A DNA stretch of 64,000 nt from Acidobacteriaceae bacterium. Its GTDB lineage: Bacteria; Acidobacteriota; Terriglobia; Terriglobales; Acidobacteriaceae. A program made the position numbers and the translations under genes. The notes under the pieces are model-generated. The model was not told the DNA's origin. It saw only the letters and a program-made list of their open reading frames with translations, and searched no databases. Positions 2,854-8,486 of this stretch are shown piece by piece (position 1 is the stretch's first letter; each line of letters starts with the position of its first letter). Location of the stretch: the NCBI GenBank assembly GCA_030041515.1, contig JASHNS010000039.1, positions 62,001-126,000 on the forward strand. The letters run 5' to 3'.

Positions 2854-3635
2854 CCCTCACGCTCACATTCATGGCTCTGCTGCTGGCCCATCTGCTCGCG
2901 GACTTCCCTTTGCAGCCGGAATGGATCGTTCGCAAAAAGGGCGACAGGCTTCTGGCGCTGGGTTGCCACGGACTCATCCATTGGATTTGCGCGTGGGCGT
3001 GCCTCCTCGTTTTCGCCGGGACGCATCCTCTGTCGTGGCGCGCGCAAGCCGTGGTCGCCGCGTATACCGCCGCGCATTTGCTGATCGATCGCTCGAAATG
3101 CCGGCTGACCGCAAAAGCATGGAGCGACAACGCCGCCGTCTTCTCGGCCGATCAGGCAGCGCACCTCCTGATGGTGGGCATCGCCAGCCTTTTACTCACC
3201 AGGACCCGTCCCGGAGCGCTTCGGCACGATTTGCTGCTCCCCCTTTCGGCAAGGGCGCATGCGCTCGAAATCGCCATTGTGTATCTGGCTGTGGTCATTC
3301 CCGGCGGATACCTGATCCGCTATCTTACAAAGGACTTTCGAAGGTCCACCGGCGAAGGGTCCGAGCGCGGCGCGAACGCTGAGAACGGACTAAAAAACGC
3401 GGGCCTCTATATCGGCTATCTCGAGCGCTTTCTTATTGTCACTGCAATCGTCGCGCAATCCGCCACTCTGGTGGGGCTGATCCTGACCGGAAAATCCATC
3501 GCCCGCTTTCCTGAATTCAAAAAAGCGAGCTTTGCCGAATACTTCCTCGTCGGAACGCTGCTGAGCATATCTCTTGCATTAGTCGGGGGGCTGCTTCTCC
3601 AGAAGCTGCTCTATGGAGCCATCGTCTTCAAATAG
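2835..3635 (+). CDS. DUF3307 integral membrane protein
   Basis: 266 residues if started at the ATG at 2835; ATGs at 2847 and 2871 are alternatives, and 2847 gives a more usual family N-terminus. The segment MALLLAHLLADFPLQPEWIVRKKG with the following LGCHGLIHWICAWACLLVF and a second half with several long hydrophobic stretches (GLYIGYLERFLIVTAIVAQSA and YFLVGTLLSISLALVGGLLL) matches DUF3307 (PF11750), a polytopic membrane family of unknown function often encoded next to SatD. The His, Asp and Arg residues inside membrane segments are conserved-looking. It converges on cysQ with an 8-bp overlap (3628-3635). Confidence 0.85.
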   Translation: MDVFMQPLTLTFMALLLAHLLADFPLQPEWIVRKKGDRLLALGCHGLIHWICAWACLLVFAGTHPLSWRAQAVVAAYTAAHLLIDRSKCRLTAKAWSDNAAVFSADQAAHLLMVGIASLLLTRTRPGALRHDLLLPLSARAHALEIAIVYLAVVIPGGYLIRYLTKDFRRSTGEGSERGANAENGLKNAGLYIGYLERFLIVTAIVAQSATLVGLILTGKSIARFPEFKKASFAEYFLVGTLLSISLALVGGLLLQKLLYGAIVFK

Positions 3636-4431
3636 CCGCGCCGCGGGCCACAAATCCGGGGTTGAGGAGCACCGGCTTGTTGTAGACCATGGGATTGCCG
3701 TCGATATCGGTCACCGATCCGCCCGCCTGCTCCACCACGCATTGCGCGGCCGCTGTGTCCCACTCCATCGTGGGGCCGGTGCGCGGATAGATGTCGGCGG
3801 CTCCCTCCGCGACCAGGCAGAACTTGAGGGAGCTGCCCATGGTGACAAATTCGCAGTCCTTATCGCCCCCCGTGAAGCGGCCCAGGTTATCCTCCATCGA
3901 CGCATGCGAGCGGCTCGTCACGACGCGCGTGCGTCCGTGCGCCGCGCGCCCAATGCGAATGGCGGCGACCGATCCGCCCTGCGCCTTCCACGCACCGGCT
4001 CCCCGGGCTGCGTAGTACATCTTGTCGATGGCGGGGGCGTAGACGACGCCCAGAATCGGATGACCCTCCTCCATCAGCGCAATGTTGACCGTGAATTCGC
4101 CGTTGCGCTTCAGGAATTCCTTCGTCCCGTCCAGCGGATCGACCAGCCAGAACCGCTGCCAGCCGCTGCGCCGCTCGAACGGAATTTCCTTCGACTCTTC
4201 GGAAAGAACGGGCCACTGGGGCGCGATGCGCTGCAGCCCTTCATCGATCACGTGGTGCGAGGCCAAATCCGCCTGGGTGAGCGGCGAATTGTTCTCCTTA
4301 TATTGCACCGACGGATTCACCTCGGCGTAGAGGCGCATGATCGCCTCCCCCGCCTGGCGGGCGATCTCGACCACCTGGGGCAGAAGCTCGCGGAATTCGT
4401 TGTCCTCGTGCGCGTCGCTCACCGAGCTCAC
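3628..4431 (-). CDS. cysQ: 3'(2'),5'-bisphosphate nucleotidase CysQ
   Basis: 267 residues. An inositol monophosphatase-fold phosphatase that removes the 3' phosphate from PAP or PAPS made in sulfate activation. Key motifs are LSEESKE (first metal Glu pair), [21 protein letters not shown] (the DPxDGT motif) and [17 protein letters not shown] (the WDxAA motif). The start is a GTG at 4431 that overlaps the cysNC stop (GTGA) and has AAGGAG a few bases upstream; the frame is open further upstream but that part lies inside cysNC. Last gene of the cys operon, placed to recycle the nucleotide made by its neighbours. Confidence 0.93.
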
Positions 4432-6281
4432 TGCTCCTTCCCTTTTTCCCGAATTCCCTGCTCGAGAAAGTGCAGGATCCGGTCCACGCACTGCTCCACC
4501 GACTCGCTGTCGGTGTGCAGGTGAATCTCAGGCGCGACCGGCGGCTCATAGCCGCTGTCGATGCCGGTGAAGTTCCTGAGCTCTCCGCGCCGCGCCTTGG
4601 CGTAAAGGCCTTTGGGATCGCGCTGCTCGCAGATGGCCAGCGGGGTGTCCACGAACACCTCGATGAACTCGCCCGCCTCAAAGCGCGACCGCGCCAGTTC
4701 CCGTTCCGCGCGATAGGGGCTGATGAACGAGACAATCGTCACCAGACCTGCGTCCACCAGCAGCTTCGCGACCTCGGTGACGCGCCGGATGTTCTCAGCG
4801 CGATCCGCTTCGGTGAATCCCAGATCGCGATTCAGTCCGTGCCGCACGTTGTCGCCATCGAGCATGTAAGTGTGCTTGCCCGCCGCGAACAATCGCTTCT
4901 CCAGCAGGTTCGCGATCGTCGATTTGCCCGAGGCTGACAGCCCCGTGAACCACAGGCAGACCGGCTGTTGCAGCTTTTGCCGGGCGCGCGCCTGCTTATC
5001 GATGTCCACGTGCTGCCAGTGGATGTTCGCAGCCCGCCGCAGCGAGAAGTCGATCATCCCCGCGCCGACCGTCTCATTCGTGATGCGATCCACCAGAATG
5101 AAGCTTCCCAGCCGCCGGCAGCGCTCGTACGGCTCGAAGGGCACAGGGCGATCGGTGGAGAGATTGACCACGCCGATGTCGTTCATCTCCAGAGCCCGTG
5201 CCGCCTCGTGGCTTCCCGTGCGCACGTCCACCCGGTGCTTGATGGCGGTGATGGTGGCCACGGCCTGCGAAGTGTGGAGATTCATCAGGTAGGAGCGCCC
5301 CGCAACCAGATGATGCCCGGAAAGGCAGATGACGCGCGCCTCGAACTGATCGCTCAGGTCCACTGGGTCGGCCGCCGACACCAGAACGCTGCCGCGTGAG
5401 ACATCCACTTCATCGGCCAGGCACAGGGTGATGGACTCGCCCGCGGCCGCCGACGGCAGTTCCTTCTGCCAGCCGACAATCGAGCGGATCTTCGTCTCCT
5501 GGCCACCGGGAACCACGCGCACCCTGTCGCCGGGCTTCGCTGCGCCGCTGGCGATGCGGCCGCAGTAGCCGCGGAAGTCGTGCGTGGGCCGATTCACCAG
5601 CTGCACGGCCATGCGGAACTTCAGATCCGGCACGTCCGTGGTCGCGTCCACCTCTTCCAGGTACCGCAGCAGCGCCGGCCCTTTGTACCAGGGCGCTGCC
5701 TCACTCCGCTCCGTGATGTTGTCGCCGTTCAGCGCCGAGACCGGAATCGGCTGGAACGACTGGAATCCCAGCTGATGGGCGACCGGCCGAAACTCCTCGA
5801 CGATCTTCTCGAACACTTCTTCGTCCCACTCCACCAGGTCCATTTTGTTGATGGCCATGACCAGGTGGCGAATGCCCAGCAGCGACACGATGCGCGCGTG
5901 GCGGTGCGTCTGAACCATCAGACCTTTGCCGGCGTTCACCACCAGCACGGCCAGCTCCGACGTCGAGGCGCCCGTGGCCATGTTGCGCGTGTACTGCTCG
6001 TGGCCGGGCGTGTCGGCGACGATGAACCGCCGCCGGGGGGTCGCGAAAAACCGGTAGGCCACGTCGATGGTGATGCTCTGCTCGCGCTCCGACTGCAGCC
6101 CGTCGACCAGCAGGGCAAAATCGATGGCATCGCCCTGGGTGCCGTAGCGCGTGGAGTCGCGTTCCAGCGCAGAGAGATGATCCTCGAAAACCTGCTTCGA
6201 TTCCCACAACAGCCGCCCGATCAGCGTCGACTTCCCGTCATCCACGCTGCCGCAGGTGATAAACCGCAACACATCCTGCAT
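4428..6281 (-). CDS. cysNC: Bifunctional sulfate adenylyltransferase subunit 1 / APS kinase CysNC
   Basis: 617 residues. The N-terminal half is the EF-Tu-like GTPase CysN: P-loop GSVDDGKST (11-19), [12 protein letters not shown] and NKMDLVEW. It stimulates ATP sulfurylase CysD. The C-terminal 171 residues are APS kinase CysC, with P-loop GLSASGKST (447-455), [16 protein letters not shown] and the [10 protein letters not shown] segment, making PAPS. The ATG at 6281 shares one base with the cysD stop (TGATG), so translation is coupled. The open frame upstream of 6281 is read-through in cysD, not part of the protein. Confidence 0.96.
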
Positions 6282-7177
6282 CAGAAGTAGCCCTCCACTT
6301 TTTTCTTCTCCATGGACCCCGCCTGATCGTGATCGATCAGCCGGCCCTGGCGCTCGGAGGTCCGCGCCGTCTGTGTTTCTTCCACAATTTCGGCGATGGT
6401 GGTCGCCGTGCTTTCGATGGCCGCCGTCAGCGGGTAGCAGCCCAGCGTCCGGAAGCGCACCATGCGCATCTCCGGCACTTCGCCGGGATCGAGCGGCATC
6501 CGCTCGTCGTCCACCATAATCCACTGGTTGGATCGCCGCACCACCGGCCGCATCGCCGCGAAATACAGCTTCACAATCTCGATGTTCTCGTCCGCGATGT
6601 ACTGCCAGATGTCGGCTTCCGTCCAGTTCGACAGCGGAAAGACGCGGATCGATTCGCCGGGATGAATGCGCGCGTTGTAGATGTTCCACAGCTCGGGCCG
6701 CTGCAGTTTGGGATCCCAGCGATGGCCGGGCGAGCGGAAGGAGAAAATCCGCTCCTTGGCGCGCGATTTCTCCTCGTCGCGCCGCGCACCGCCGATGATC
6801 AGGTCGAACTGGCCCTCATCCAGCGCCTGCTTGAGGGCCTCGGTTTTCATCAGGCCGGTGTACGTATCCGAATCGTAGGTGAAGGGGTTCACCCCTTCTG
6901 CCTTGCGCTTGTGATTCGTATGCACCAGCAGCTTCATCCCGCATTCCCGGGCGATACGGTTGCGGAATTCGATCATCTCCCGGAATTTCCAGGTGGTGTC
7001 GACATGCAACAGCGGAAACGGAGGCGGCGCGGGCCAGAAGGCCTTGCGCGCCAGGTGGAGCATCACGGAGGAATCCTTGCCGATCGAGTACATCATCACG
7101 GGCTTTTCGGCCAGCGCGACGGCTTCGCGAAGAATTTCAATGGATTCCGCTTCAAGAGAGGCGAGGTACCCGCTCAT
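6281..7177 (-). CDS. cysD: Sulfate adenylyltransferase subunit 2 CysD
   Basis: 298 residues, the normal full length. It forms APS from sulfate and ATP together with CysN. The PP-loop appears as [19 protein letters not shown] and is followed by [15 protein letters not shown], a CysD hallmark; the C-terminus has the RTSERQGR(L)IDHD and EKKKVEGYF tail. First structural gene of cysD-cysNC-cysQ, 66 nt downstream of the cysteine-rich leader peptide. The SD before its ATG is weak, which fits control by the leader. Confidence 0.97.
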
Positions 7178-7243
7178 TCATGACCATCCGGGGAATGTGA
7201 AGTAGGAACAAAAAGGCAGGACTTCGGAGTGGATCGGGAAGGA

Positions 7244-7327
7244 CTAGCGACAGCCGCAGCAACAGAAAAAGGGCTTCTCGATCAGGTGGCCGCTCGACCC
7301 GGCCCGTTTTGCATGGCAGGCTTTCAT
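7244..7327 (-). CDS. Cysteine-rich 27-residue leader peptide upstream of cysD
   Basis: Short frame from ATG (7327) to TAG (7244-7246). The peptide begins MKACHAKRAGSSG and ends EKPFFCCCGCR: four of its last six residues are Cys, with a fifth near the start. It lies 66 nt upstream of cysD on the same strand and about 11 nt after the predicted transcription start, with no Shine-Dalgarno. Poly-cysteine leader frames before cysteine or sulfur genes act as cysteine-responsive attenuators in mycobacteria; the same role is inferred here: ribosomes stalled at the Cys codons when cysteinyl-tRNA is scarce would alter translation or termination before cysD. Confidence 0.75.
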   Translation of the reverse strand: MKACHAKRAGSSGHLIEKPFFCCCGCR

Positions 7328-7344
7328 TGGGGTTCGGTAGGGCC

Positions 7345-7353
7345 ATCATAACA
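7345..7353 (-). promoter_or_regulatory. Extended -10 promoter for the cys leader and operon
   Basis: On the minus strand the bases read TGTTATGAT, a match to extended -10 (TGnTATAAT) with one mismatch. No good -35 is present, as is common for extended -10 promoters. Transcription would start near 7338 and give a 5' leader of about 11 nt before the leader-peptide ATG at 7327. The upstream gene on the same strand ends at 7377, so the promoter gives cysD its own transcription. Confidence 0.55.
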
Positions 7354-7376: not shown

Positions 7377-8486
7377 TCACTGGCGCCGGCGGATCGAAAT
7401 AACCGCCGCGTTCCGTCCTCGATCCCTGACTCCTGGCTCCTCCATGTTCGCTTTTTCCCACAGCTCTCCCTGCAAGGGCCATACCGGCTGCGGCTCTTTG
7501 CGCGCCCCTTCGCTGAACCGCTGCCCCAGCCCGTATTTCCGCACCACCGCCTGCACCAGGGCTTTCACCCGCTCCTGATACGCCCGCGGCACAAACGCGC
7601 GATCCCGATACCGCGCCTCGTACTGCGATTCAAGCGCGGGAAACTGTTCGTGGATGAACCGCATGAACACCGGCCGCGAGCACGGCTTGAGGAACAGCGG
7701 CTGCGCGCCGAAGAAGCTCGCCCCCACCCGCTGCGCCCGCCGCGCCATCCCCTCCAGCGCCGCGCGCGTGTCCGTAATCCCCGGCAGCAGCGGCGAGCAT
7801 AGAATCCCCGTCCGCAATCCCGCCGCCCGCAACCGCTCGACGGTCCTGAAGCGCAGATCGGGCCTGGGCGCCCGCGGCTCCAGCACCCGCGCCAGCTTCG
7901 CGTCCGGCGTCGTGATGGTCAGGCAAATCCGCAGCACATTGTGCTCGGCAATCCGCCGCAGCAGCTCCGCGTCGCGCTCAATCAGCGTCGACTTCGTCAC
8001 AATCCCCAGCCGCAGCCCCTCGTGCTCGGCAAAAACCTCCAGCAGGCTGCGCGTCACCTGTGCGCGCCGCTCAATCGGCTGGTACGGATCGGTGGCCGTC
8101 CCCAGCGCGATCTCCTCGCCCGCCCGCACCTGCTTCAGCTCCTGCCGCAGCAGCCACGCCGCGTGATCCTTGATGTAGATCTCCCGCTCGAACAGCTCCG
8201 GGTCGTTCCTGTCCATGAACTCGTGCGTGTATCGCGCATAGCAGTAGCGGCAGCCAAATTCGCACCCGCGATACGGATTGATCCCCCAGGCGAAGAACGG
8301 CATCCGCTTCGAGACGATGCGGTTCAGGACGGATCGCGTCGCCAGGGTGCGAAACTCGACGCCATGGCCGTCCCGCCCAGCGTCCGCCTCGACAGACTGC
8401 GCGGCCAGCCGGGCGACGCCCACCGGCCCCTGATTCAGGATCGGAAACAGAGCCGGAAACAGTATATTCGCTTTTTCTTCGCCCAT
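7377..8486 (-). CDS. SPL-like radical SAM protein (PA0069/Rv2578c family)
   Basis: 369 residues. The cluster motif CEFGCRYCYA (CxxxCxxC, near residue 75) binds the 4Fe-4S cluster and is preceded by FAWGINPYRGC, typical of this spore-photoproduct-lyase-like family, as is LGTATDPYQPIER. The family has no established reaction; it is found widely, often as a stand-alone gene. The C-terminus carries a short Arg-rich tail. It lies upstream of the cys leader on the same strand with a 49-nt gap, but the separate promoter for the leader argues it is not a required part of the cys operon. Confidence 0.85.
   Translation of the reverse strand: MGEEKANILFPALFPILNQGPVGVARLAAQSVEADAGRDGHGVEFRTLATRSVLNRIVSKRMPFFAWGINPYRGCEFGCRYCYARYTHEFMDRNDPELFEREIYIKDHAAWLLRQELKQVRAGEEIALGTATDPYQPIERRAQVTRSLLEVFAEHEGLRLGIVTKSTLIERDAELLRRIAEHNVLRICLTITTPDAKLARVLEPRAPRPDLRFRTVERLRAAGLRTGILCSPLLPGITDTRAALEGMARRAQRVGASFFGAQPLFLKPCSRPVFMRFIHEQFPALESQYEARYRDRAFVPRAYQERVKALVQAVVRKYGLGQRFSEGARKEPQPVWPLQGELWEKANMEEPGVRDRGRNAAVISIRRRQ

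Follow-up and report, generated by a model that had tools for sequence, protein, structure and literature searches.

What controls the sulfur operon cysD-cysNC-cysQ in an acidobacterium, and does the short cysteine-rich reading frame ahead of it serve as a cysteine-sensing leader peptide? Cysteine leader attenuation is known from Actinobacteria and, for cysS, from Rhodobacterales. Candidate cys leader peptides have been on record in Mycobacterium, Propionibacterium acnes, and Bifidobacterium since 2005 (PMC1262725), and mycobacterial polycysteine leaderless sORFs respond to cysteine, according to passages in three articles (PMC9094748, PMC9031893, PMC13236596) that cite Canestrari et al. 2020. 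The uORFC-8-2 motif of Rhodobacterales contains two tandem Cys codons, controls cysS, and ends in an intrinsic terminator (PMC8632094). Hardly any of the attenuators predicted in Acidobacteriota had been assigned a function, according to one paper (PMC2965389).

A cysteine-rich frame lies between an extended -10 promoter and cysD

The window—the whole stretch of 64,000 nt that we analysed—had been described in an earlier note as carrying a 27-codon frame with the ending CCCGCR between an extended -10 box and cysD, preceded by only about 11 nt of transcript and no Shine-Dalgarno (SD) sequence. All of these features were found in place (Table 1), with the length of the 5′ UTR referring to a predicted start ~7 nt past the -10 box. 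The sequence before the leader ATG, CUACCGAACCCCA, contains no purine-rich SD, and no -35 element upstream of TGTTATGAT passed a consensus scan, nor was a two-hexamer promoter found. Given the predicted 5′ UTR of 11 nt, the window leader would not be translated from a leaderless transcript. Its last Cys codon is separated from the stop by a single Arg codon. A search against Rfam returned no family match anywhere in the window.

Table 1 Features of the leader, its operon, and the further cysteine leaders of the same genome
Feature	Position	Strand	Description
Extended -10 promoter	7353-7345	minus	TGTTATGAT; read from sequence
Predicted 5′ UTR	7328..7338	minus	~11 nt; placed from the -10 position
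Leader frame	7327→7244	minus	MKACHAKRAGSSGHLIEKPFFCCCGCR, then stop; 27 codons, ATG at 7327, 84 nt
Control-codon block	7250..7264	minus	TGT TGC TGC GGC TGT (CCCGC); within the best-conserved stretch of the frame (window, G001, G006)
Gap, leader stop to cysD	7178..7243	minus	66 nt; C-rich, G-poor, with a T run; candidate Rho-loading or SD-masking segment (putative function)
cysD	6281..7177	minus	Sulfate adenylyltransferase small subunit; NCBIfam, Pfam
cysNC	4428..6281	minus	Sulfate adenylyltransferase large subunit + APS kinase fusion; NCBIfam, Pfam
cysQ	3628..4491	minus	3′(2′),5′-bisphosphate nucleotidase; NCBIfam, Pfam
Second Cys leader	L219:3578-3646 (G000:C40)	minus	MSLCPSLVACCVCCCTLRRTCG; before a cysH-like gene; leaderless promoter, intrinsic terminator
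Third Cys leader	L230:903-971 (G000:C94)	plus	MALCPMPVMCCACCCALRRTCG; before a sulfite/nitrite-reductase family gene (sir); leaderless promoter, terminator-like hairpin

The cysteine-rich end of the frame is conserved in two sister species

Among the 61 genomes searched, the upstream DNA of the window leader is common to only two others, G001 and G006, both of the same genus; with the window they form a trio. G008 and G019 have a related cysD and no such leader, which counts against reading the frame as an attenuator. In G001 and G006 the frame spans exactly 27 codons and ends at the same stop, encoding MEPHNAKWASWSGQLPEESRACRRCCR and MNSWYTNGLTLSAFLIAKARACCRGCR, and the Cys-rich ends of the trio read CCCGCR, CRRCCR, and CCRGCR. 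Alignment of the three sequences places indels immediately ahead of the ATG and in the 60-66 nt that separate leader and cysD, and none within the 84 nt of the frame. The distance from TGTTATGAT to the ATG is 17 nt in the window and 17-23 nt across the trio, and the TGnTATGATGGC of the promoter box is unchanged in all three genomes.

Substitutions within the frame are not enriched at third codon positions, so most of the peptide can evidently change freely. The last seven codons, in pairwise comparison, differ at 4, 1, and 3 of 21 sites, as against 22, 25, and 28 of 60 in the remainder of the frame; pooled over pairs that are not independent, this amounts to 8/63 versus 75/180 sites (p = 2e-5). 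Moreover, neutral simulations on a star tree preserved the frame in both sisters in 0.35% of cases, and did so with at least three terminal Cys residues in 0.015%. The earlier note had offered non-conservation of the peptide or of its Cys codons as grounds for dismissal: the frame and its Cys-rich end have been kept while the peptide itself has drifted, which is the pattern a leader peptide should display if only its control codons matter.

Cysteine leaders recur before sulfur genes of Acidobacteriota

The same note had suggested looking for CCCGCR-like peptides before cysD and cysH of other acidobacteria, and such frames were indeed found at both genes. For each of 132 acidobacterial cysD upstream regions, we searched 450 nt for ATG frames of 8-50 codons and kept the best one. 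At least four Cys within ten residues were present at 34% of the loci, whereas the reverse strand gave 3.8% and dinucleotide-shuffled 450-nt regions gave 0.3%; for at least five Cys the respective values were 22.7%, 0.8%, and 0%. These counts overstate independence, since some sequences are near-identical species pairs. Only one of 76 comparison cysD loci from a genome collection—nearly all from other phyla, mostly Proteobacteria—had a frame with at least four Cys. Within the home family of the window, a Cys-rich frame precedes 47 of 57 cysD loci at a threshold of at least three Cys in ten residues and 38 of 57 at a threshold of at least four, and 14 of 30 sulfite/nitrite reductase loci are likewise preceded by Cys leaders. 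Outside this family, some Cys-rich frames occur in three families (f2, f33, and f55) and none in many others. Representative cysD leaders are MSFAPTPAVCCACCCVMPGLWGTKL (L030), MVVFVNRACCCCRMLPCPCPRCCR (L020), and MRACCQCRNCCPAHPVAVCCRVR (L011). A family-wide scan for leaderless -10 boxes combined with Cys runs returned mostly chance matches and was abandoned.

Read in this light, the window leader is one case of more general putative cysteine leaders at acidobacterial cysD, cysH, and sulfite reductase genes. Our literature search, which covered few subscription papers, found no earlier report of cysteine leaders in Acidobacteriota; the leader type is known elsewhere and, in this phylum, apparently undescribed.

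Leaders with and without intrinsic terminators

The genome of the window harbors two further Cys leaders, before a cysH-like gene and before sir (Table 1). Each has a TTGACG or TTGACC box and an A+T-rich -10 element, followed 6-7 nt on by the ATG—the spacing of a leaderless transcript—and a terminator-like hairpin, its arms GCCCGCG and CGCGGGTTTT, ~24-30 nt past the stop. By their sequence, both look like textbook cases that combine a leaderless sigma-70 promoter, a Cys run, and an intrinsic terminator.

These features are widespread in the group. A TATAAT-like box lies 4-10 nt before an in-frame ATG in 23 of 53 leaders but before only 1 of the 242 other ATGs in these regions, so many transcripts of the group are presumably leaderless or nearly so. 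Similarly, a strong hairpin with a T run at most 120 nt past the leader stop was detected in 21/53 leaders, 2/265 shuffles, and 2/74 leader-less cysD regions. Codon choice is distinctive as well: TGT makes up 222 of 313 Cys codons in the 53 cysD/cysH leaders as against 6 of 112 in downstream cysD genes. When 61 leaders were examined, 24 had a terminator, including the cysH leader of the window genome, and the other 37, including that of the window, had none. In terminator-type leaders, pairing of the segment after the Cys run with the 5′ arm of the terminator (2:3 pairing) beat shuffles in nine of 24 cases at p < 0.05, which is modestly consistent with an antiterminator; 1:2 pairing was not clearly above shuffles (3/24 at p < 0.05). 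Terminator-less leaders have more C-biased gaps (mean C/(C+G) 0.60 vs 0.55 with terminators, p = 2e-4) and a last Cys codon nearer the stop (p = 0.008), and consensus folds of three groups of them gave no convincing common structure. The window leader has neither the leaderless start nor the terminator typical of the group, and this, too, counts against its being an attenuator.

No intrinsic terminator was found in the gap of the window, G001, or G006, and no antiterminator in the window leader. One candidate terminator inside the leader (GGGCC...AAGCCC-TTTTT) was rejected, as it is absent from G001 and G006. The window leader RNA does not fold better than its shuffles (z +1.5), three sequences being too few for covariation. 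C/G counts of the gap are 24/10 in the window, 16/14 in G001, where the C bias is weak, and 16/11 in G006; its T run is kept in all three.

A proposed mechanism and its rivals

We consider the 27-codon frame to be probably a cysteine-sensing leader-peptide attenuator of cysD-cysNC-cysQ. From what can be read directly in the DNA—the frame, its promoter box, its conservation, the recurrence before sulfur genes, and the lack of an intrinsic terminator—we infer that the window leader is translated, responds to cysteine, and acts through a downstream step. Transcription would start at the extended -10 box, and a ribosome would load at the near-5′ AUG without the help of an SD. With Cys-tRNA abundant, the peptide would be completed and the ribosome would depart, exposing the C-rich, G-poor gap, whereupon transcription would end before cysD, most likely via Rho. 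With Cys-tRNA scarce, the ribosome would pause at Cys codons 22-26 beside the stop, shielding the first part of the gap, and transcription would run on into the operon. For the earlier note's claim that a poly-cysteine leader controls the operon, this means that the reading is largely supported, by the conserved end, the 47 family loci, and the further cysH and sir leaders, with attenuation an inferred step that no intrinsic terminator accounts for.

The tryptophanase operon leader of E. coli, tnaC, responds to tryptophan via nascent-peptide arrest. A stall near the leader stop beside a C-rich, presumably Rho-accessible segment is common to tnaC and to our proposal, whereas the window leader would sense charged-tRNA starvation. 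Its Cys codons abut the stop, it lacks an intrinsic terminator, and its gap is rich in C and poor in G, which together make a tnaC-like shielding of a Rho-loading segment plausible. For mycobacterial cys leaders of the same anatomy, Rho-dependent termination was proposed by authors who called their own prediction weak (PMC1262725). Taken alone, Rho-dependent termination as the output step is a tentative assignment, to which we give somewhat less than an even chance.

The main rival retains the sensing of cysteine and makes the control translational: the leader region and the gap would keep the cysD SD (GGATGG) hidden, and stalling of a ribosome would expose it. A gap of merely 60-66 nt would suit such a switch, as would the potential of GATCCACTCCG in the window to pair with CGGATGGTC across the SD, and the mycobacterial system has been described as translation attenuation (PMC13236596). 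However, the masking hairpin that is possible in the window is not preserved in G001 or G006, and its partner strand begins ~8 nt beyond the leader stop, about where a stalled ribosome would end. We regard SD masking as rather unlikely, and favor Rho over it as the downstream step only slightly.

The remaining readings dispense with cysteine sensing. A functionless chance frame, conserved because its DNA holds a promoter or is bound by a protein, would fit the observation that the DNA pattern TGYTGYTGYNNNTGY is no commoner than its reversed control (51 vs 47 occurrences in the genome), and what is conserved at the end might also be a site that works as DNA or RNA. The pattern by itself is unremarkable; position and conservation carry the weight, and it is the rarity with which neutral simulations keep the frame and its Cys end, together with the location of the frame ahead of cysD, a gene that has such a frame at most of its loci in this family, that makes this explanation improbable. 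Still a little less probable is a translated frame whose only effect comes from coupling or reinitiation, or from the loading of ribosomes at its 5′ AUG, with its Cys codons incidental. Reinitiation from leader genes near structural genes may boost translation, a pattern also reported for Acidobacteria (PMC4833913), but the effect peaks at ~10-16 bp, as against the 66 nt between leader and cysD, and incidental codons would leave unexplained why no part of the frame is better conserved than its Cys-rich end and why such leaders are found repeatedly, at cysD, cysH, and sir alike. Finally, a longer frame at 7349-7152 (65 aa), which starts with an ATG inside the -10 box and overlaps cysD, is open in the window, but its counterpart in G001, read by eye, stops after ~7 codons; that this is the true upstream gene is most improbable.

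Relation to known leader systems

With actinobacterial cys leaders, the window leader shares a short frame, a Cys run near the stop, the lack of an intrinsic terminator, and a position upstream of cys genes. On testing, it displayed their Cys-run frame before a sulfur operon, their run near the stop without a hairpin, and their conservation between species; it differs from them in belonging to an unrelated phylum and in its unrelated peptide, and from the leaderless polycysteine sORFs of mycobacteria in its predicted 5′ UTR. Like uORFC-8-2, it is an upstream frame with tandem Cys codons that would act as a ribosome-mediated attenuator, as far as its sequence tells. The terminator of uORFC-8-2 has counterparts in the cysH and sir leaders of the window genome, whereas the window leader itself precedes cysD rather than cysS and lacks a terminator. 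With trp-type attenuators it shares a leader peptide that contains a run of control codons and precedes biosynthetic genes. Their terminators reappear in the cysH and sir leaders, and their alternative pairing reappears in some leaders of the group; in contrast, neither terminator nor antiterminator was found in the window leader.

The occurrence of leaders at cysD, cysH, and sulfite reductase genes in several families of a phylum abundant in soil suggests convergent and wide use of this form of control, and provides a regulation hypothesis for Acidobacteriota. Moreover, with both designs present in one genome, terminator-based output and Rho-dependent or translational output become directly testable side by side.

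Origin and neighborhood of the operon

The window cysD shares up to 75% identity with proteobacterial CysD as against ~59% with the other acidobacterial cysD type, which suggests horizontal acquisition of the cysD-cysNC-cysQ operon. The cysH leader of the same genome resembles the cysD leaders of the congeners G003 and G011, whose cysD is of the type ~59% identical to that of the window. The lineage has likely swapped its cysD-cysN for the acquired cysD-cysNC-cysQ and kept the old leader before cysH, the Cys leader of the new operon being unrelated. On a broader reading, to which we give only just less than an even chance, Acidobacteriota would possess a cysteine-attenuation regulon that comprises cysD/cysH operons and sulfite reductase and uses two interchangeable outputs, one an intrinsic terminator and the other a C-rich segment that lacks a terminator. 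The second, probably horizontally acquired cysD-cysNC-cysQ operon of this genus would then have gained an independently evolved Cys leader, so that leader attenuation would re-evolve readily at sulfur genes.

Within the operon, the listed ORF of cysNC extends back to 6689, and its family match begins near 6278. Directly upstream of the leader, on the same strand, lies a gene for a radical SAM protein (7377-8486, minus) that is related to the Rv2578c/PA0069 families at scores below the curated cut-offs.
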